Below the pieces are notes generated by a model. That model was not told where the DNA came from. It saw only the letters and a program-made list of their open reading frames with translations, and did not search any database. A DNA stretch of 64,000 nucleotides from an uncultured Microbacteriaceae bacterium (GTDB taxonomy: Bacteria; Actinomycetota; Actinomycetes; Actinomycetales; Microbacteriaceae), in the NCBI GenBank assembly GCA_903859205.1, contig CAIOLM010000042.1:1-64000 (forward strand). Reading direction: 5' to 3'. Each line of letters opens with the position of its first letter. The stretch's first letter is position 1. Shown piece by piece: positions 48,475 through 59,104 of this stretch. A program made the translations under genes and the position numbers.

Positions 48475-49939
48475 CGCCGAGCAGCCACTCAATCCCCCGG
48501 CCAATCACCATCGCGGGCGTCGTTGAACTGCTCAGATTCAGGGTGTTGGTCATAGCTCCGCGCGTGTGTTCGGGCAACGAGTCGATGGTTTGACCGTCGG
48601 GGCCGATGATTGACGAAATGCCGACGGTTGAAATGTTCACCAGGGTGCGACCGGTTTCTATCGCGCGCAGGCGAGCAATAGCGAGCTGTTGGGCGCTCTC
48701 TTCTGAGTACCCAAAGTCGGCATTGTTCGTTTGGGCAACGATGATGTTGGCGCCACTGCTGAGCATGTCGAATATCTGCTGGTCGTCGACGATGTCGAAG
48801 CAGATGGACAGGCCGATGTTTGTTCCCGCTACCTGAACCACGTTCGATCGAGTTCCAAAGCTGTAGTCATGTGTGACCATATCGACAAGATCGGGTGCGA
48901 GTGCATGAAAGAAGTCACGGTTTGGCATGTATTCGGCAAACGGAACCGGGTGGATTTTGTCGTATTGGGCCGTGACACCTTGGCCCGACATCCATACCAG
49001 TGACGAATTGAAATAGACGCCGTCGCGGGGCTCGGTAATTGTGCCGACGATGAATGGGGCGTTGTATTTAGCCGAAAGGTAGTCGAGTACCTGCGCCGAC
49101 TCCTTAAATCGCGTCGGATCAACGTCTGATGCGTTCTCTGGCCAGATCACGACATCGACCGGGGATTTGACATACGTCAACGTGGTCTCGGCGTGGTCAA
49201 TGACATTCTGCCCAGGCTCAACCACGTCAAAGAGCGCTGACTTGGTGTTGCCTTGGACGGCGGCAAGGCGGATCGTTCCGCTCGTGGCGACCGGAAAGCG
49301 GGGGAACGCAACTGCGCAGACGAGCACAAGGATGGTGATTGCGCCGACGCGCAGAAAGCGCCTGACGCGAATTGCTTCAAAGACGAAAGCTGCGCTCCAC
49401 GCGATAAGAAAACTCAGCCCGGCGGTTCCGCACCAAGCTACGAGGGGACCAAATCCACTTTCCGACTGCGATTGGGCGAGCCTGCCCCAAGCAAAGCCGC
49501 CGTATGGCCAGACCGCGGCAATGCCCTCTCGCGCCACCCAGAGACCGGCAAGGACGAGCGGAATAAAGATCAGACGCTTACGGGTCGTACTCCAGACGGT
49601 TGGACCGTGGCGAAGCACGACGGCGGCAACGGCGCCAAAGATGACGAAGTAGACCGTTTGAACTCCGGCGAGCCCCAGCCAAGGCACTGGTCCGAGGTAG
49701 AGGGTAAGCCAATGGATGAGCGGACCCCAGAACATTGCTCCTGAGACCAGACCAATGAGCAGGCCCGATGCCCATGTTCGACCGTTGAGTGACCACAGAA
49801 TAATGAACACGCCCGCGAACGCCAGCGGCCACAGTGACAACGTTGGGAACGCGGCCCCGAGCACGATTCCGCCCACGGCGGCCGCAATCACGGACGCCCA
49901 GAGGGGTAGCGCGACGAGTCGAGCGGGAAGGCGCTTCAC
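48392..49939 (-). CDS. lnt: Apolipoprotein N-acyltransferase
   Basis: A 515-residue membrane enzyme that adds the third acyl chain to lipoproteins. Six or more N-terminal helices (1-215) are followed by an extracytoplasmic nitrilase-like domain with the catalytic triad Glu 268 (WPENAS), Lys 328 (YDKIHP) and Cys 380 (SICFDI), and a final helix near 490. All three residues are intact. Its last 27 codons lie antisense to rbpA. The start shares one base with the stop of the helicase gene, so lnt follows the helicase in one operon. Confidence 0.94.
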   Translation of the reverse strand: MKRLPARLVALPLWASVIAAAVGGIVLGAAFPTLSLWPLAFAGVFIILWSLNGRTWASGLLIGLVSGAMFWGPLIHWLTLYLGPVPWLGLAGVQTVYFVIFGAVAAVVLRHGPTVWSTTRKRLIFIPLVLAGLWVAREGIAAVWPYGGFAWGRLAQSQSESGFGPLVAWCGTAGLSFLIAWSAAFVFEAIRVRRFLRVGAITILVLVCAVAFPRFPVATSGTIRLAAVQGNTKSALFDVVEPGQNVIDHAETTLTYVKSPVDVVIWPENASDVDPTRFKESAQVLDYLSAKYNAPFIVGTITEPRDGVYFNSSLVWMSGQGVTAQYDKIHPVPFAEYMPNRDFFHALAPDLVDMVTHDYSFGTRSNVVQVAGTNIGLSICFDIVDDQQIFDMLSSGANIIVAQTNNADFGYSEESAQQLAIARLRAIETGRTLVNISTVGISSIIGPDGQTIDSLPEHTRGAMTNTLNLSSSTTPAMVIGRGIEWLLGAIGLVGFALCSFASRRLGRGRGEREGN

Positions 49940-52371
49940 TAGAGCACTCCCGAATAGGCGACAACTCCCCGGCGAATGCCGTCGAGAGCCTTGCGGGCGT
50001 TGTCTGCAATCTCTGGTTCGGCTACCACCGAGAGCTGGTCAAGAAGATCAATCGTCTGTTTAGTCCAGCGTACGAAGTCCCCAGCGGGCATGTCGGCGTC
50101 AAAAAGCACGTCGTCGAGACGCGTTCCCTGAGCCCACTTGTACATCGCCAGAGATAATCCCGCGGCGAGCTGAGATGTGCCTGAAAGCTTGTTGTCATGT
50201 TCGAGGTCATCGAGCTTGGCCCAGAGTTCGTTGGTGGCCGAGAATGCCTCGCGGAACTTGCCTCGAGGCAACATGCGCTCGCTGACGGTTCCCTCTTCAC
50301 GGCGCGGTTCGAAGACAATCGCACAAGCCATGGCTGCCAACGATGGCGCATCCAAGCCGATCCACAGTCCCTTACGCAGGGATTCCGAGACGAGCAGGTC
50401 GCGCTCGCCGTAAATGCGACTCAGCGTCGCTCCAGATGTGGTCGGCGCGAGCGCTCCCCCGGAACTCTTGGTCAAGTAGCCAAGTTCAGTGAGCACGTCG
50501 CACACGCGGTCGAAGACGCGAGCCACTGCTCCTGTGCGGGTGTTGATTTGCTGCACGAGCTTGTCTGTGTCGCGCTTGAGGCGCCACCAGCGCTCAGCCC
50601 AACGGGCGTGATCTTCTCGTTCCGGGCAGCTGTGGCAGGCGTGTGACTTCAGGTTCTTGCGCAGCCGCGCGAGTTCGGCCGCCCGCTTGTCACGCTGCGC
50701 TCGCGGAAGGGCGTTGAGATTCTTGCTGTCGCGCTCAACGTCGGTCAGCTTGCGCCGAATGGTCGAGTACTCCTCGAAATCTCCGAGATGACACGACATG
50801 GGCTTGACGAAACCGGAAAGGCTTTCCTCTTGTTGCTTTACTTTGCGAGCCAGGTCGACGACCGCCCGATCGGCCTGAAACTGAGCAAAAGACGATTCGA
50901 GGATTTCACGCGTGCGCTCTCGCCCGAATCGAGTGACCAGGTTGATTGCCATGTTGTACGTGGGCTTGAAGCTCGAGTTCAGGGGGTAGGTGCGGCGGCT
51001 CGCTAGATTGCTCACGGTCTGCGGGTCAAGGATGTTTGACCACTGGATGAGCGAGTGACCTTCGACGTCGATACCCCGTCGCCCGGCACGACCTGTGAGC
51101 TGCGTGTACTCCCCCGGACTCAGCGGCACGCGACCTTCACCGTTGAACTTGTCTAGGCGTTCGAGTACGACGGTGCGAGCGGGCATATTCACGCCGAGTG
51201 CGAGCGTCTCCGTTGCGAAAACTGCGCGAAGCAGACGCTTCTGGAACAACTCTTCGACGACCTCTTTGAACGCAGGGAGGAGCCCCGCGTGGTGAGCGGC
51301 GATTCCTCGTTCAAGGCCGTCGACCCACTCCCAATACCCGAGAACTCCCAGATCTTCGTCCAGTAGCGTGCGGCAGCGTTCATCCACGATTTCGCGGATT
51401 TCCTCACGCTCTTCTGTGGTCGTCAGGCGCAGACCCGAACGGACGACCTGACTAACGGCTTGGTCGCATCCGGCGCGACTAAAAATGAAGAAAATTGCGG
51501 GGAGAAGGTTCTTTTGACCGAGCATGTCGATGACGTCGGGTCGGTCCATCTTGGCTTCGTGGGCGCGTGGGCCGCGGTTGTCGAACGAGTGGCCGGCCCG
51601 TCCTCGATTTCGCACATGCGGCGCGCGAGCCGCGGCGTTGGCAAGCTGAACGAGTTCGGGATTGACTCGACCGGTCGCAGCCTTGCCGCTGCCGTCGAAG
51701 AGATCAATCATCTTGTGGCCCACGAGAACGTGCTGGTCGAGCGGAACCGGGCGGTCCTCAGAGACGATGACGTCAGTGTCTCCACGAACTGCCTGCAGCC
51801 AGTCGCCGAACTCTTCGGCATTAGACACTGTTGCCGAAAGCGACACCATGCGCACACGACGCGGCAGGTGGATGATGACTTCTTCCCAGACGGCGCCGCG
51901 GAAGCGATCGGCCAGGTAGTGCACCTCATCCATGACGACGAACTCGAGTGAGTCAATCAGGTCTGACTCGGCATAGAGCATGTTGCGAAGCACTTCGGTC
52001 GTCATGACGACAATTCGTGCGCCCGAGTTGATGTTTGTGTCGCCGGTGAGTAGGCCGACGTTCGATTCGCCCCACTCGTCGCAGAGTTCGTTGAACTTTT
52101 GGTTGCTGAGTGCCTTGATGGGCGTCGTATAGAAGATCTTTCCGGCCGACGACAACATCGTGAGATAAACGGCAAACTCCGCTACGACAGTCTTTCCAGC
52201 GCCCGTGGGTGCGGCTACGAGAACGCTGCGTCCCTGCTCGAGCGATTCGCAGGAAGCTATCTGAAACGGGTCTAGGTCGAACGCGCGGTCGGTGCGAAAG
52301 GTCGTGAGTTGCGGATGCTTCGAGCTCGAGCGTGAGGCCGCGTAGCGCTCTGCGGCCGAGAGCTCACTCAC
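49939..52371 (-). CDS. helY: Ski2/Mtr4-like superfamily 2 RNA helicase (HelY type)
   Basis: An 810-residue helicase. Motifs: Q-motif region DLDPFQIAS, Walker A APTGAGKTVVAEF (about 55-67), TPIKALSNQKF (Ia), motif II DEVHYLADR, SATVSN (III), and motif VI QLTGRAGRRGIDVEGHS. A long helical C-terminal part containing CHSCPEREDH and a DSHCT-like end follows. Probably acts in RNA turnover. The GTG start overlaps the tatC stop by 4 nt. Position next to tatCA and pafBC matches mycobacterial helY. Confidence 0.92.
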   Translation of the reverse strand: MSELSAAERYAASRSSSKHPQLTTFRTDRAFDLDPFQIASCESLEQGRSVLVAAPTGAGKTVVAEFAVYLTMLSSAGKIFYTTPIKALSNQKFNELCDEWGESNVGLLTGDTNINSGARIVVMTTEVLRNMLYAESDLIDSLEFVVMDEVHYLADRFRGAVWEEVIIHLPRRVRMVSLSATVSNAEEFGDWLQAVRGDTDVIVSEDRPVPLDQHVLVGHKMIDLFDGSGKAATGRVNPELVQLANAAARAPHVRNRGRAGHSFDNRGPRAHEAKMDRPDVIDMLGQKNLLPAIFFIFSRAGCDQAVSQVVRSGLRLTTTEEREEIREIVDERCRTLLDEDLGVLGYWEWVDGLERGIAAHHAGLLPAFKEVVEELFQKRLLRAVFATETLALGVNMPARTVVLERLDKFNGEGRVPLSPGEYTQLTGRAGRRGIDVEGHSLIQWSNILDPQTVSNLASRRTYPLNSSFKPTYNMAINLVTRFGRERTREILESSFAQFQADRAVVDLARKVKQQEESLSGFVKPMSCHLGDFEEYSTIRRKLTDVERDSKNLNALPRAQRDKRAAELARLRKNLKSHACHSCPEREDHARWAERWWRLKRDTDKLVQQINTRTGAVARVFDRVCDVLTELGYLTKSSGGALAPTTSGATLSRIYGERDLLVSESLRKGLWIGLDAPSLAAMACAIVFEPRREEGTVSERMLPRGKFREAFSATNELWAKLDDLEHDNKLSGTSQLAAGLSLAMYKWAQGTRLDDVLFDADMPAGDFVRWTKQTIDLLDQLSVVAEPEIADNARKALDGIRRGVVAYSGVL

Positions 52372-53198
52372 TTCTCGCTCAGCAACGTGGAGGTGGGCAC
52401 GGGGGCGTGAATCTCGGCATCCAATTCCCGTGCGGCGCGCCTGGCTGAGCGCTTGTCATGAATGACGGCGAGTCCGGCGGCAACAAAATACAGCAGGATC
52501 ATGGGTGCTGCGAGAAGAAGCATCGAGAGGACATCCGCTGCTGGTGTAGCAATTGCCGTAAAGAGAACGATGAGCAACATTGCCCAACGCCATGCCTTGA
52601 CGATGGCCTTGGCCGAAAGAACGCCGGCGAAGTTGAGCAGGACGATGAACACGGGCAGAACGAATGCAACGCCCACGACGATGGTCAATTTCAAGATGAA
52701 ATCGAAGTATGTCTTCGCGGTAATGATCGTCGAGTCGGGTGTCGGAGCAAAGCTGGTCATGAGTTCGACGATGTGCGGGAACACCCACCAGCCCGCAACG
52801 CAACCGGCCAAAAACAGAGGAATAGCCGAGAGAAAGAACCCGAGAACGTACTTGATTTCACGCTTAGACATCGCCGGCATGAAAAACGCGAAGATTTGGT
52901 AGAGCCAGAACGGGCTTGTCAGCACAAGAGCAATCGTGAACGCAATCTGCAACTTGAGATCAAAAGCGCTCGAGATGCCGTCATAGTTGAGCGTTGCTAC
53001 CCGGTGTTGGTTGGCGGCAACGACATAGATGGGCGCGCGCATGGCTGCAAGCACGGGGTCGGTGAGAAACCAGCCACCGAAAGTGCCAACAATGACCGCG
53101 ATGGCTACCAGATACAGCCGTTTGCGCAACTCAACGAGGTGCTGTGCCAGGGACATCTTGCGGCCCTTGCCCGAGGGCGAAGCTTTTCGGGCGGACAC
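52368..53198 (-). CDS. tatC: Sec-independent protein translocase TatC
   Basis: A 276-residue, six-helix receptor of the twin-arginine translocase, which exports folded proteins. Landmarks: HLVELRKRLY near 20-29 (signal-peptide binding region), FTIALVLTSPFWLYQIFAFFMPA and the conserved loop RWAMLLIVLFTAIATPAADVLSMLLLAAPMILLYF. A long basic N-terminus (SARKASPSGKGRK) is actinobacterial. GTG 53198 lies 3 nt after tatA. The Rieske protein QcrA is a likely substrate. Confidence 0.96.
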   Translation of the reverse strand: MSARKASPSGKGRKMSLAQHLVELRKRLYLVAIAVIVGTFGGWFLTDPVLAAMRAPIYVVAANQHRVATLNYDGISSAFDLKLQIAFTIALVLTSPFWLYQIFAFFMPAMSKREIKYVLGFFLSAIPLFLAGCVAGWWVFPHIVELMTSFAPTPDSTIITAKTYFDFILKLTIVVGVAFVLPVFIVLLNFAGVLSAKAIVKAWRWAMLLIVLFTAIATPAADVLSMLLLAAPMILLYFVAAGLAVIHDKRSARRAARELDAEIHAPVPTSTLLSEK

Positions 53199-53201
53199 GG
53201 G

Positions 53202-53429
53202 TTATGACGCGGAGTTGTCAGTGGTGTTCTTGTCAGAAGCGCTCTTGGCTGCGTCTGATTTCGCGTCGGCAGAACCGCCTTCGTCTTTCATCTGCTTCAT
53301 TTCGCTGCGGAAGATGCGCAATGACTGACCGAGGCTCTTAGCCAGACCGGGAAGCTTGGGTGCACCAAACAACAGCAAGACAACAGCAATGATGATGAGG
53401 AAGTGCCAGCCAGTGAGACCGTTCCACAT
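53202..53429 (-). CDS. tatA: Sec-independent protein translocase TatA
   Basis: A 75-residue protein with one N-terminal membrane helix (about 7-22), the hinge FGAPKLPGLAKSLGQSLRIF with the FG-x-x-x-x-P motif, an amphipathic helix and a charged, Ser/Asp-rich tail. TatA oligomers form the translocation path. Length and tail separate it from TatB. Operon: pafB-pafC-tatA-tatC-helY-lnt. Confidence 0.95.
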   Translation of the reverse strand: MWNGLTGWHFLIIIAVVLLLFGAPKLPGLAKSLGQSLRIFRSEMKQMKDEGGSADAKSDAAKSASDKNTTDNSAS

Positions 53430-53477: not shown

Positions 53478-54437
53478 CTACAGCGCGCTTGTCGCCCACG
53501 CCGCGACGTGAGCGCGCACGGATTCCGGTGAAACGACGGTGATAAGGCCCGGGCGCAGGCTGATGGCGCGGAAAACGCTCTCGAGTGAGCCGAAATTGAT
53601 TTCGAGTTGCACCTTCCCCGCAGCGGAACGTACTTCGCGCGGAGCAAAGTCGGCAAGAGCGGAACGGGCCCAGGTGGGCAGCTCGAGGACCGCAACGATG
53701 TCCGTGTCGCTGACATCGAAGAGCGTGTCCGGCAGGGTCGACGGGTCAATTGCAATATCAATCTTGGTGTCCAACATGCGAACGTTTTCTAAGCGGTCGA
53801 CCCGGAACGTGCGCAACGCTTCACGGCTGTGGCACCAGGCCCGCAAGAACCATGTTCCCGCAACGTTCTCCACCCGAACCGGGTCAACGAGTCTCGTGGC
53901 GCTTCCCGAAGTCGGGCTGCGGTACTCAAACTCCACATGCACTCCGGCCGACAGAGCACGGGTGACCGTCTCAAGGCCAGACGGGGGCGTTGGAGCAGAA
54001 ATGGTTATCTCAGCGGTGCCTTGGGAGGATCCCCGAGCGACCTTGCGAATCAGCTCAGAGATGACGGACTTGGTGTTGGCATCAACCGCCTGTTCGATGA
54101 GCGACAACCCAGCGAGCAGTGTGGCGGCCTCGCGACCCGAGAACCGAGGGGTCGCGTCGATGGCGACCGTGTTGGTCAGGCTAATGATGTCGTCGTGCTC
54201 AAAGAGATCCCAGTCGATGTCAAACATCTGGTTTGAATAGACGTCGCCCGCTCTGTCGGGAACACCCATCGAGGTGAGGTCTTCAATCATTTTCTTAATC
54301 GTGGCCGGCTTCTCATCGAAGTTCTCGGCCACTTCTGCCACGGAGACGGGATTGTTTTGCAGCAAATAGGGAACGAGCGACAACAAGAGCGTGATTCGGT
54401 CTGATGCCTGAGCGCGGGGTTTCGCTGTCGCCATCAC
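53478..54437 (-). CDS. pafC: WYL-domain transcription regulator PafC
   Basis: A 319-residue regulator with an N-terminal winged helix-turn-helix (ITLLLSLVPYLLQNNPVSVAEVAE landmarks) and a WYL domain with VEFEYRSPTSG and WFLRAWCHSREALRTFRVDR. PafB and PafC act as a heterodimer that switches on a RecA-independent DNA-damage response in mycobacteria; the WYL domain is thought to sense nucleic acid. It overlaps pafB by 4 nt (GTG 54437, or ATG 54434). Confidence 0.93.
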   Translation of the reverse strand: MMATAKPRAQASDRITLLLSLVPYLLQNNPVSVAEVAENFDEKPATIKKMIEDLTSMGVPDRAGDVYSNQMFDIDWDLFEHDDIISLTNTVAIDATPRFSGREAATLLAGLSLIEQAVDANTKSVISELIRKVARGSSQGTAEITISAPTPPSGLETVTRALSAGVHVEFEYRSPTSGSATRLVDPVRVENVAGTWFLRAWCHSREALRTFRVDRLENVRMLDTKIDIAIDPSTLPDTLFDVSDTDIVAVLELPTWARSALADFAPREVRSAAGKVQLEINFGSLESVFRAISLRPGLITVVSPESVRAHVAAWATSAL

Positions 54438-55426
54438 TTCACTCCCCCGTGGTTGTGTGCGATGGCGCCAAAACGGCTTTGCAAGGCTTCGACCAAGGAT
54501 GCCGGACTCAGTGCTCGAACACTGTCACCGAATTCCGTGAGCTCGTCGGCCAGAATATTGACGTCGCTGAAGTGAAGTTCTAACTCGCTCGCTTGATTCA
54601 GCGGGCCATAGATTGCGCAGAGCCTGATGTGGGCATCCGAGCTTGGGTCAACACGCAAGACCGCGGTGTTCTGCAGCTCGAGGGCGCTGAGCTCATTCTC
54701 CAACTGATCCGAATAGTCGATAGCCCCGCCATCGAAGGTTCGGTTGGGTAACTTGGTGGGCGTGCTCACCATTCGGCTGAGCAAGAAGGTGCGCTGGTCA
54801 TGGACATCAATGTCGTGACCGAGCATATGCCAAATTCCGTGGCGATTTGTAAGCGCCAGCGGGGCGACCGTTCGCTCTGTGGGAGCGCCCTCGCCCGGCT
54901 TGAGGTAGAGGAAGCGAGCCACGCCCTGACGCTGGAGGGTCTCTTCAAGAACGTCAAACGTGTCGTTGCTTGTGTTGATGCGTGGAGCTACTCCGACGAG
55001 TGCGTCGTTGGCGGGAATGCCGAGGGAACGCAATTTCGTGAGCGCGTGCCGCGACTCCATGCTGAGCGACCCATCGCGCCATGCTTCGGCAGCGAGGCGC
55101 AACAGTGAGAACTCGGCAGGACTGAAGGTGACGTCCTCGGGAAGTTCGTAGTCCGACTCTGAGATTCGATAGCGAGTCTCGTGTCCGTCCTCCCAGGCAT
55201 ACTCGAGCGTGAGCGTTTCAATGACGATGCCGAGATCACGGATATCACTCTTGTCGCGTTCAAACTGTCGCTTCAAACTGTCAAGCGAGGTCTTGTTGTT
55301 GGGGTTGTACTTGTCGCGATACCCCGGGACGCTTCCCAAAATCTCATCGATGAGAAGCCCGTAGCGATGAGAGATCAAAGTGAGAATCAGGCTGAACTGG
55401 CGTTCTTCCTTCGATAACTCAGCCAT
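54434..55426 (-). CDS. pafB: WYL-domain transcription regulator PafB
   Basis: A 330-residue partner of PafC with the same plan: N-terminal HTH (QFSLILTLISHRYGLLIDEIL landmark, SLKRQFERDKSDIRDLG) and WYL domain with VARFLYLKPGEG and HIWHML-type core (RHGIWHMLGHDIDVHDQRTFLLSRM landmarks). ATG 55426 follows GGGGGAG; an in-frame GTG at 55441 is less likely. The pair is retained although no Pup-proteasome gene is seen in this locus. Confidence 0.93.
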   Translation of the reverse strand: MAELSKEERQFSLILTLISHRYGLLIDEILGSVPGYRDKYNPNNKTSLDSLKRQFERDKSDIRDLGIVIETLTLEYAWEDGHETRYRISESDYELPEDVTFSPAEFSLLRLAAEAWRDGSLSMESRHALTKLRSLGIPANDALVGVAPRINTSNDTFDVLEETLQRQGVARFLYLKPGEGAPTERTVAPLALTNRHGIWHMLGHDIDVHDQRTFLLSRMVSTPTKLPNRTFDGGAIDYSDQLENELSALELQNTAVLRVDPSSDAHIRLCAIYGPLNQASELELHFSDVNILADELTEFGDSVRALSPASLVEALQSRFGAIAHNHGGVK

Positions 55427-55449
55427 GCGCTCCCCCGTCAATTCTTGGA

Positions 55450-56382
55450 CTAGTTGACACCCAAGATATCGATGACGAAGACCAGAGTGGAGTTAGCGGG
55501 AATCGCGCCGGATGCCTGATCGCCGTACCCCTGCGCCGGCGGAATCACCACGAGGATTTGCGAACCCACGGTCTGACCGACGATTGCGTCGCGGAATCCC
55601 GGAACGACACCATCCACTGAGAAGTCAGCAGGTGTGCCGCGCGACCAGCTGGAGTCAAAGGGCTGTGCGTTCTTCTCCCAAACCACACCGAGGTACTGCA
55701 CTGTGACGTTCGCGTGTGCGGGAACGACTTCTCCGTTGCCCTTCTTCATCACGGCGATTTTGAGCTCAGTCGGAGCTGGGGTGTTCGGGATGGTGATGCC
55801 TGGAACGCCCGAGTCGTTGAGAACGACCTGGGGGAAGCCGTCAGGAATGACCTGAGCGGCACCGGTGGCCTTGGTTGGGTTGACCTTGACGATGTCGAAA
55901 ACGACGACAATCGTGTCGTTCTTGCTCAGGTTGAGGCTCTTCGCGAGCGTCTCATCGTTGCCGATAACACCGACGACACGGCTACCCGCCTTGTGGCATT
56001 GCACAGCCTTGGAGATGCCACCCAGCTTGGTGACGTCAACGGGAATCTTTGCAGTGCTCTTGCCGTCGTATGCGGTGGCTTGCATCAGCTCACCGGTTTT
56101 GCCGTTGTAAATGGACGCTTCAATCGTGATGGATGAACCGGCTACGGCGACGTCGCCATTGCCCGAAATCACATCGACGGACTCCGTGGCGCTGACGCTG
56201 AGTCCGGGAGCGAACTTGACCTCGGGCTTCTTGCCGAAGTCACCAGAAACCGAGACCGCTTTTGTTCCGTTGCCTGGGCTGGCGAGCGGGTCGCAGGCGA
56301 CGTTTGCGCCGCCGGACTGTGAGCAGCCAGCGAGCCCGAGTACGAGGAGTGCTGCGGCGGTGAGAGCGAGAGGAGTGCGCAA
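55450..56382 (-). CDS. FKBP-type peptidyl-prolyl isomerase lipoprotein
   Basis: A 310-residue exported lipoprotein (signal peptide with lipobox GLAGC, Cys 20). The C-terminal 100 residues are a clear FKBP domain: VTVQYLGVVWEKNAQPFDSS, VVPGFRDAIVGQTVGSQILVVIPPAQGYGD and FVIDILGV landmarks. The region 40-165 resembles a second, degenerate FKBP domain (SGNGDVAVAGSSITIEASIY, GSRVVGVIG, TIVVVFDIVKV). Start is TTG 56382, supported by AAAGGAATTTTC directly upstream. Likely a folding helper at the outer membrane face. Located 8 nt before pafB on the other side of a small gap. Confidence 0.92.
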   Translation of the reverse strand: MRTPLALTAAALLVLGLAGCSQSGGANVACDPLASPGNGTKAVSVSGDFGKKPEVKFAPGLSVSATESVDVISGNGDVAVAGSSITIEASIYNGKTGELMQATAYDGKSTAKIPVDVTKLGGISKAVQCHKAGSRVVGVIGNDETLAKSLNLSKNDTIVVVFDIVKVNPTKATGAAQVIPDGFPQVVLNDSGVPGITIPNTPAPTELKIAVMKKGNGEVVPAHANVTVQYLGVVWEKNAQPFDSSWSRGTPADFSVDGVVPGFRDAIVGQTVGSQILVVIPPAQGYGDQASGAIPANSTLVFVIDILGVN

Positions 56383-56451
56383 GAAAATTCCTTTGGTGTG
56401 AGATGCGATGTCAGTCAGCCTGACAGAGCCAGATAGAGCTTACTTGGGTGG

Positions 56452-57465
56452 TTACTGGGAGTCCCCTGAAGGTTCCTCCGGTGCGTCGCCGGCAAGGGTG
56501 GCGCTGTGTTGAGCAGAGCGAACCCGCTTTCGCAAGATTTTGTCGCTTACTTGCCGTTCATGCAGCGCGCCCGGGGTCCAGGCTTCGACGTCTTCGGCGC
56601 TGTATTCCGACTTGGATGCACGGCGCTTGGGCTCCGGCAAGACCGTTCCTGGCGCCAAGCGTCGAGCGGTGAGTAAAAAGCCAGTGTGGCCAATCATGCG
56701 GTGATCCGGGCGAACAGCGAGTCCTTCGACATGCCAACCGCGAATCATGGTTTCTGACGCGTTTGGATGCGTGAAAAGGCCGGTGGCTCGAATGGCCTCT
56801 ACGGTGCGCGAAAGCTGGGTTACGGTGGCCACGTAGCACAGGAGCACTCCGCCGGGTGTGAGCGCTGTCGCCACAGCCTCGATGCACTCCCAGGGAGCGA
56901 GCATGTCGAGAACCGCGCGGTCAGCCGTGCCCGCATTGACTGTCTCAGGAAGAGCCTCGACAAGGTCGCCGACAGTGATTGTCCAGGTTGCTGGAAGGGA
57001 GCCAAAATATGTCACCCCGTTAGCTCGCGCAATGTCAGCAAACTCTTCTCGACGCTCGAAGCTGTAGAGGCGGCCCTCGGGGCCTAGGGCCCGCAGAATC
57101 CACATCGAGAGAGCGCCAGAGCCAACCCCGGCTTCGATGACGCGAGCACCGGGGTAAATGTCGACCATGCCCAAAATCGCCTGCGCGTCTTTGGGGTAAA
57201 TAATGGCGGCGCCACGCGGCATTGACATGACGAAATCATTGAGCAACGGGCGCAGAGCCAGGTGAGGTTCGCCTGCCTCGTTGTTGATGACCGAACCGTC
57301 AGGCAGCCCAATGATGCTGTCGTGACTCAACGCGCCGCGGTGCGAGTGAAAAACCTTTCCCGGCTCGAGCGTGATGGTGTTGAGCTTGCCCTTGGGTCCG
57401 GTCAGTTGAACCCGGTCACCGACGCGAAAAGGCCCCGATTCGTAGCGTTCAGGAGTCTTAGACAC
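56452..57465 (-). CDS. trmI: tRNA (adenine(58)-N(1))-methyltransferase TrmI
   Basis: A 337-residue SAM-dependent enzyme that makes m1A58 in the tRNA T-loop. An N-terminal beta domain (RVGDRVQLTGPKGKLNTI, HSHRGALSHDSIIG) precedes the Rossmann domain with VIEAGVGSGALSMWILRALGPEGRLYSFE (landmarks) and DMLAPWECIEA. The C-terminal tail is charged and low-complexity. GTG 57465 is the start, with AAGGAGGCG upstream and an 8-nt overlap with the HAD gene; the frame stays open for 58 more codons inside that gene. In other actinobacteria the Pup-proteasome genes follow it. Confidence 0.94.
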   Translation of the reverse strand: MSKTPERYESGPFRVGDRVQLTGPKGKLNTITLEPGKVFHSHRGALSHDSIIGLPDGSVINNEAGEPHLALRPLLNDFVMSMPRGAAIIYPKDAQAILGMVDIYPGARVIEAGVGSGALSMWILRALGPEGRLYSFERREEFADIARANGVTYFGSLPATWTITVGDLVEALPETVNAGTADRAVLDMLAPWECIEAVATALTPGGVLLCYVATVTQLSRTVEAIRATGLFTHPNASETMIRGWHVEGLAVRPDHRMIGHTGFLLTARRLAPGTVLPEPKRRASKSEYSAEDVEAWTPGALHERQVSDKILRKRVRSAQHSATLAGDAPEEPSGDSQ

Positions 57466-58144
57466 GCTCGCCTCCTTGGTGCGCAGCAAACACAATGCCC
57501 AGGTCGTCGGGAGTTGATCCGGCCAGGGTGTCCCAGAGGGTGGTCCCGATGGTTTCGTCCAGAGGGACGAGGTGACGAACGCCGATGAGGGCGCATCCGG
57601 CATCGTGGGCAGAACGCATGCCTGAGGGCGAATCTTCAATGGCTAGACAGTCGCGAGCGGGAAGACCAAGCTTTTCGGCGGCCAGCAGATACGCGGCCGG
57701 GTGTGGCTTCTGATGGGAGACGCGATCACCTGAGACAACGACATCAAAACGCGCCCCGGGGATGCTGTGAGCGACCACGTCGGCAATTGAGAAGACCGAC
57801 ATGGTGACAAGTGCTTGCGGCACACCCTGGGCGTGGAGAGCCGCGAGAAGCTCGACCGCACCCGGACGCCACGGAATGGACTGTGAAAGAAGCTCGCGCA
57901 CGCGCTCGGCCAAGAAATCGATGACCTCGGGAATCGTCAGATCGACTCCCCGATCGATCAGGGCCTGGGCGGTGACTGGAAGCCCCTGTCCCACCTGCAC
58001 GAGGCCGTCTTCGTGAGTCCAGTCTGCGCCGTATTGATTGGCAAGCTCAACCTCGGCGGTAATCCAGTAGTCCTCGGAATCTACGATGGTTCCATCAAGG
58101 TCCCACAACACGGCCGAGGGCATCGGAATCAGTGAACTGCTCAC
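57458..58144 (-). CDS. HAD-superfamily hydrolase, beta-phosphoglucomutase-like
   Basis: A 228-residue phosphatase/phosphomutase-like protein. Motif I is LWDLDGTIVDSEDYW (nucleophile and acid Asp), with a helical cap (about 20-85), motif II TMSVFS, motif III KPHPAAYLLAAEKLGL and motif IV AIEDSPSGMRSAHDAG. Substrate unknown. GTG 58144 is preferred: a TAGACT -10 element lies 7 nt upstream, so the message is leaderless; an open frame continues to 58168 across that element. Precedes and overlaps trmI. Confidence 0.9.
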   Translation of the reverse strand: MSSSLIPMPSAVLWDLDGTIVDSEDYWITAEVELANQYGADWTHEDGLVQVGQGLPVTAQALIDRGVDLTIPEVIDFLAERVRELLSQSIPWRPGAVELLAALHAQGVPQALVTMSVFSIADVVAHSIPGARFDVVVSGDRVSHQKPHPAAYLLAAEKLGLPARDCLAIEDSPSGMRSAHDAGCALIGVRHLVPLDETIGTTLWDTLAGSTPDDLGIVFAAHQGGERV

Positions 58145-58151
58145 TTGTGAG

Positions 58152-58157
58152 AGTCTA
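58152..58157 (-). promoter_or_regulatory. -10 element TAGACT of the HAD-trmI unit
   Basis: Minus-strand TAGACT ends 7 nt before GTG 58144, with no ribosome-binding site. It decides the start choice for the HAD gene. Confidence 0.5.
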
Positions 58158-58173
58158 ACCGCCACCAACCTCG

Positions 58174-58204: not shown

Positions 58205-59104
58205 ATGGCCGAGAATCGGGTCTTTGATGGTCGAATCCTTGTCGTCGCTTTTGAAGGCTGGAACGACGCTGGCGAGGCGGCATCGTCAACCGTGCGTGCG
58301 CTTCTCGACCAGCTCGACGTTGTGCCACTGGCATCCTTCGATTCCGAGAACTATTACGACTTTCAGCAGGTGCGCCCGATTGTTGGCTTCGACGACGAAG
58401 GACACCGCGTTTTGACCTGGCCGACAACGGTGCTCTACTCGCCACTCGTGCCCGGAATGTCGGCTAAGCCGCTAGCCCAAGATGCCTCACTCGACGTCAC
58501 CGGTGAGAATGGGTCAAATATCTACCTCATGCTCGGTCAAGAGCCGACTCGGAACTGGCAGACGTTTGCTGCCGAGGTTATCGATCTGGCGCTCGCCGCG
58601 GACATCTCGGGAATTGTGTTCTTAGGCGCGTTGCTTGCTGAGGTGCCGCATACTCGCCCGATCCCCATCTTTATTTCGAGCGAGAACCCCACGGTGCGCT
58701 CGCAGTTCGATGTTGAGCGCAGTTCGTATGAAGGTCCTGTGGGCATCCTGGCTGTTTTGGCCGATGCTGCCGAGCGCGCCGGGATTCCCACCATGAGCAT
58801 TTGGGCATCCGTTCCGCACTACGTGCACCACGCACCGTCCCCCAAAGCCACGCTCGCTCTTATCGACCGGCTTGAAGAAATCGTGGATGTCACGGTCGCC
58901 CGAGGGGCCTTGGTCAATGATGCTTCAGAGTGGGAGGCAAGTGTGGCCTCGCTAGCCGACGATGACGAGGAAATGGCTGCGTACATCGAGAGTCTCGAGC
59001 GCTCGCGCGATACGTTTGACTCCCCCGAGGCAAGTGGTGAGGCGCTCGCGCAAGAGTTTGAGCGGTTCTTGCGTGATTCCGACGAGAAGCCCGGTGCTGA
59101 CTAG
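58205..59104 (+). CDS. PAC2 family protein
   Basis: A 299-residue protein related to the eukaryotic/archaeal proteasome-assembly chaperone 2. Segments: [47 protein letters not shown] and [22 protein letters not shown] (landmarks). The actinobacterial members are of uncertain function and sit near the trmI-pafBC region in mycobacteria too. AAGGAGCACC precedes ATG 58205. Its TAG stop is shared as CTAG with the convergent uppP gene. Confidence 0.9.

Follow-up and report, generated by a model that had tools for sequence, protein, structure and literature searches.

How the genes of the Pup-proteasome system (PPS) came to be missing between trmI and an FKBP gene that lie only 69 bp apart is the question raised by the window, the whole stretch of 64,000 nucleotides analysed in this work, which comes from an uncultured Microbacteriaceae bacterium. 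A sequence-only reading of the window had taken this gap, around which PAC2, trmI, pafBC, tatAC and helY are all kept, for the loss of the block from its usual site. The coordinates of the gap and its flanks proved right, and the Pfam matches agree with the gene names (Table 1). Paired HTH-WYL-WCX proteins are encoded side by side as pafB and pafC. In Pfam, PafB had no HTH match and PafC no WCX match; the PDB matches of the two proteins span both parts, and, judged by position and sequence, the orthology of PafB and PafC is not in doubt.

Table 1. Coordinates of the features at the trmI-FKBP locus, given as positions of the window.
Feature	Positions	Strand	Evidence or remark
trmI-FKBP spacer, 69 bp	56383..56451		Between the end of trmI (56452) and the beginning of FKBP (56382), both on the minus strand; place of arc-dop-pup-prcB-prcA-pafA in the order's other families
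trmI, tRNA (adenine-58-N1) methyltransferase, flanking the lost block upstream	56452..57477	-	Pfam TrmI-like_N, GCD14; orthologues in 80 named loci
FKBP-type peptidyl-prolyl isomerase lipoprotein, flanking the lost block downstream	55450..56382	-	Pfam FKBP_C; after pafA in other families
pafB, WYL/WCX regulator with a putatively altered ssDNA pocket	54434..55441	-	Pfam WYL, WCX; PDB matches 6SJ9, 7P5X, 9FND; residue counts
pafC, partner of pafB	53478..54437	-	Pfam HTH_PafC, WYL
tatA	53202..53429	-	Pfam TatA_B_E
tatC	52368..53198	-	Pfam TatC
helY-like DEAD/DSHCT helicase	49939..52371	-	Pfam DEAD, DSHCT
HAD hydrolase	57458..58168	-	Pfam HAD_2; PAC2-HAD-trmI order also in other families
PAC2-family protein, kept without any proteasome	58205..59104	+	Pfam PAC2
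PafB codon for L220 (= M. smegmatis R211)	54782-54784	minus	
PafB codon for H205 (= M. smegmatis Y196)	54827-54829	minus	

The genome to which the window belongs (1.70 Mb, 44 contigs, 95.7% complete) gave no match to Pup, PafA/Dop (PF03136), PrcB or Bpa. ARC/Mpa was matched in it only below the cut-off, at best with 159 bits versus 504.75 and at profile positions 168-381. The ARC matches in Microbacteriaceae, which reach at most 168 bits at profile positions of about 168-390 against this cut-off of 504.75, were rejected as AAA cross-matches. An assembly gap or a relocated block was also considered and rejected, because the PPS gene searches of the genome were empty; moreover, since the assembly runs unbroken through the locus, the missing block is not accounted for by an assembly gap. 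The claim that the block is gone from the whole genome was thus borne out by the genome-wide search, with no Pup, PafA/Dop, ARC or PrcB.

The same absence was observed throughout the sampled family. PafA/Dop was found by profile search in none of 249 Microbacteriaceae genomes from 85 genera; ARC (0/299) and PrcB (0/249) were over the cut-off in no family genome; and neither Pup nor Bpa was matched in 60 family genomes, with Pup positive in 20/20 outside the family. In the family search, PrcB gave a weak match of 20 bits in one genome (G024), with two stops within it. All 80 named family loci run trmI-FKBP-pafB-pafC, with 14-342 bp (median 131.5) from the end of the TrmI match to the start of the FKBP match, and at these loci tblastn with the PPS genes, PrcA included, gave no match (E 1e-3). 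The FKBP-pafB distance, with a family median of 78 bp, is about 2.1 kb in L016 and 1.2 kb in L034 (Cryobacterium glucosi, Microbacterium sp. AG1240). Locus L061, from a record titled Planococcus sp. APC 4015, is a typical Microbacteriaceae PAC2-HAD-trmI-FKBP-pafBC locus; the record is probably mislabelled or contaminated.

The loss had been pictured as one that could be dated against close Microbacteriaceae keeping the block. This part of the earlier reading had to be given up, as no such relative was found in 249-299 genomes of 85 genera; the loss is neither recent nor peculiar to the genome of the window and is best placed, as an old one, on the family stem. Outside the family, neither PafA/Dop nor PrcB was matched in eight genomes of f4 and one of f3, all of them small (0.8-1.8 Mb), where the PafA/Dop negatives were inferred from genomes missing in the match listing and the family labels and sizes were taken from the PrcB search. 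Such recurrence elsewhere is what would speak for the block having been lost several times independently inside Microbacteriaceae, in which case some close relatives would carry it to this day, but any tested component occurs in 0/249 to 0/299 family genomes and 80/80 loci share the junction, so that we regard independent losses as highly improbable. Removal of the block by streamlining of a small genome would accord with the 1.7 Mb of the genome studied here and with the small size of the genomes that have lost the system outside the family. However, family members of 3-4.8 Mb are equally without the block; small genome size is thus not the cause, and hardly any weight is left for streamlining.

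The other families of the order reveal what the site held before. Of the 396 genomes in an order-wide sample, some of them Microbacteriaceae, 353 had PafA/Dop matches over the cut-off, usually two each; G615 gave one weak match below it (E 7e-4). PrcB, as a positive control, was found in 15 genomes outside the family. PPS genes were present in 20/20 outside loci, which were drawn from 15 families (f2, f3, f5-f9, f11, f13-f19). Both flanks are in view in 15 of them (L116, L118, L119, L120, L122, L123, L125, L127, L129-L135), and in all 15 ARC, Dop and PafA lie in that order between trmI and FKBP, with a TrmI-FKBP distance of 5129-12449 bp; the region is only partly in view in L117, L121, L124, L126 and L128, where the contig or the extracted stretch ends. 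By tblastn, Pup was not picked up in L123, nor were PrcB/PrcA in L129, whose genome (G312, f3) is also without PrcB by profile. The trmI-FKBP intervals of L132 and L119 are long (10.7 and 12.4 kb), which suggests extra genes inside their PPS block.

The tree built from 98 TrmI sequences was a quick one of a single gene, and some of its outgroup branches are long. In it, Microbacteriaceae form one side of a branch with an SH-aLRT of 100, and one change is enough to account for block presence. Because the family is one clade on this tree, a single stem loss suffices, and we infer one loss on the family stem as the simplest account. It could be argued instead that the Microbacteriaceae ancestor never had the block and that other families gained it at the trmI-FKBP site, the possibility by which the sequence-only reading had said it would fall. 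Nothing was found for this beyond the absence itself, whereas the identical interval holds the block in many families, including the nearest-branching ones on the TrmI tree. With the same genes in the same interval of so many families, a single loss is much more probable than insertion at this site time and again, and ancestral absence can be given almost no credence. The loss from the usual site stands, the trmI-FKBP interval being occupied by the block in the other families (15/15 loci with both flanks).

PafBC was retained in the family almost without exception. PafB was matched in 146/150 family genomes, and those without a match were G015 (0.9 Mb), G081, G144 and G088. In f4, the PafB-profile scores are at most about 38 bits in PPS-bearing and PPS-less genomes alike. 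The Pup ligase family is present in three f4 genomes (G268, G284, G326) whose PafB-profile match is not above about 38 bits, and pupylation there apparently goes without PafBC. In f9, f14, f10 and others, the best PafB match and the PPS are apart; since this match is distant from the PPS locus in G256, G261, G257, G269 and G312, adjacency of PafBC and PPS is not general in the order. The association of PafBC with the PPS is loose both ways.

The motif of the mycobacterial RecA-independent DNA-damage response was reported as tTGTCRgtg-8nt-TannnT (PMC5656591). In the genome of the window, TGTCRGTG-N8-TANNNT has 6 exact matches, and with at most one mismatch there are 44 matches versus 17 for the reversed control pattern. 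Each of the six exact sites is followed on its strand by a long ORF whose start lies 20-200 nt from the first base of the motif (the ORF assigned per site was the longest starting within 260 nt). The products are a PcrA-like helicase, an FtsK-like protein, ClpX, an ECF-type ABC ATPase, ribonucleotide reductase alpha (nrdA) and a helicase-like protein that matched no NCBIfam model. All 13 one-mismatch sites that keep TAnnnT were examined. Eight precede named genes, for XseA, HolA, RecA, a ClgR-like regulator, oligoribonuclease (orn), HolB, MetK and a LemA/MamQ-like protein, and the other five are followed by short or unnamed ORFs, or by none. For ftsK, xseA, orn, holB and the LemA-like gene (contigs C24, C4, C27 and C36 of G000; L209, L215, L234, L238, L228), the distance from the first base of the motif to the predicted start is exactly 28 nt, which puts the start 6 nt past the -10 hexamer and suggests leaderless transcripts in these five cases. 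These sites suggest that a PafBC-type promoter motif stands ahead of DNA-repair genes in this genome. ClgR is also reported to recognise the motif, in a passage of PMC5656591 that cites earlier work; a ClgR-like protein is present in the genome, and ClgR, too, could read the promoter-like sites.

That pafBC outlived the PPS in line with a DNA-damage role, as had been proposed, is supported by the kept genes and the promoter-like sites, but the pair did not survive unchanged, for the PafB pocket is unlike the one found in each of the 17 other families examined. In M. smegmatis, ssDNA binding was lost in the PafB double mutant R211A/R214A and likewise in Y196A, R181A and R181A/R204A/R208A (PMC11804915). 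The residues Y196, R204 and R211 are replaced in the window PafB by H205, V213 and L220, respectively, and R181, R208 and R214 are kept as R190, R217 and R223. We compared 95 PafB sequences of the family, of which 79 came from named loci, 15 from other genomes and one from the window, with 40 sequences from the 17 other families. Among the 15, the G046 sequence lies on a contig exactly as long as that of L006 and is probably the same one. Position 211 is R (36) or K (4) in 40/40 outside sequences and L (94) or V (1) in 95/95 family sequences, and the alignment is gap-free over columns 208-214. Y196 is Y in 39/40 outside versus 1/95 in the family, where H (77) dominates, and R204 is R in 37/40 versus 14/95. 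Throughout both sets R214 is invariant, and R181 and R208 are R or K. In f3, f10 and f12, which have no PrcB by profile and keep pupylation, Y196 and R211 are retained; the PafB change thus does not track loss of the core alone. Among 78 family loci, PafC has Y186 in 77 (the window has F) and R204 in 74; R201 is mostly kept and W250 is lost in the family; the window PafC keeps the arginines aligned with M. smegmatis PafC R201 and R204. Of 64 PafB columns that are conserved across the first 15 sequences from other families, about 10 are changed in Microbacteriaceae, several of them N-terminal, so the divergence of PafB is broader than the pocket.

By these alignments, the predicted ssDNA-sensing pocket of PafB is remodelled family-wide, and damage sensing by PafBC is in consequence probably altered in Microbacteriaceae. 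The pocket changes may also be neutral or compensated, with ssDNA sensing as in mycobacteria, which would be compatible with the family-wide loss of the PPS. Three positions (R181, R208, R214) are still basic, PafC keeps Y186 and mostly R201/R204, and the pocket is not the sole changed part of PafB (about 10/64 columns). On the other hand, position 211 is R/K in 40/40 sequences outside and in 0/95 inside, and both R211A/R214A (double) and Y196A abolished ssDNA binding in M. smegmatis (PMC11804915). We consider neutrality a substantial possibility, though not the one to be expected.

Altogether, we hypothesize with high confidence that the PPS block was lost on the family stem, that PafBC was kept for the control of repair genes, and that the PafB pocket was remodelled with a probable change in sensing. 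The whole arc-dop-pup-prcB-prcA-pafA block, whose interval measures 5-12 kb in the sampled loci of other families, would have been lost between trmI and FKBP on the Microbacteriaceae stem, either by one deletion or in steps that began with the proteasome core, as in f3, f10 and f12. All sampled descendants, including the genome of the window, would have inherited the closed trmI-FKBP junction. PafBC would have been retained because its job is the transcriptional control of DNA-repair and replication genes via promoters of the RecA-independent type, and not pupylation, as the retained genes and the promoter-like sites indicate. In the same lineage the WYL pocket of PafB would have been remodelled and damage sensing probably altered. 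The PPS loss is ordinary gene loss at family scale; what merits testing is the remodelled sensor. A further step would be that the PPS loss and the re-tooling of the sensor coincided and that PafBC there answers a different ligand or works in a PafC-led mode; if true, Microbacteriaceae would own a distinct RecA-independent DNA-damage response. We think this rather unlikely. The loss and the PafB change amount to one event on one branch, so their tie may be coincidence.

That the core can be lost while pupylation stays is well established in the literature (PMC6466877, PMC3511204), and according to one review all Actinobacteria have the PPS locus. We found no paper on total PPS loss in Microbacteriaceae in a search outside which the subscription literature largely lay, and specialists may know of it. 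A whole large family without any tested PPS component, including genomes of 3-4.8 Mb, offers a natural set for the DNA-damage role of PafBC free of pupylation, and also a natural test of the PafB residues needed for ssDNA sensing. The actinobacterial PPS locus of mycobacteria, Micrococcus and Streptomyces has the same flanks, with trmI upstream and pafB-pafC-tatA-tatC-helY downstream, whereas the Microbacteriaceae locus lacks all six PPS genes and not just prcBA. The Corynebacterium type, to which f3, f10 and f12 also belong, is likewise a secondary loss at the same locus, but it concerns the proteasome core only and keeps Pup and PafA/Dop, while Microbacteriaceae keep nothing tested. With PafBC of M. 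smegmatis and Arthrobacter aurescens (PDB 7P5X, 9FND, 6SJ9) the family shares the paired WYL regulators and, ahead of repair genes, RecA-independent promoter-like sites; in contrast to these proteins, the family PafB is without R211, nearly always without Y196 and mostly without R204, and its PafC is without W250.
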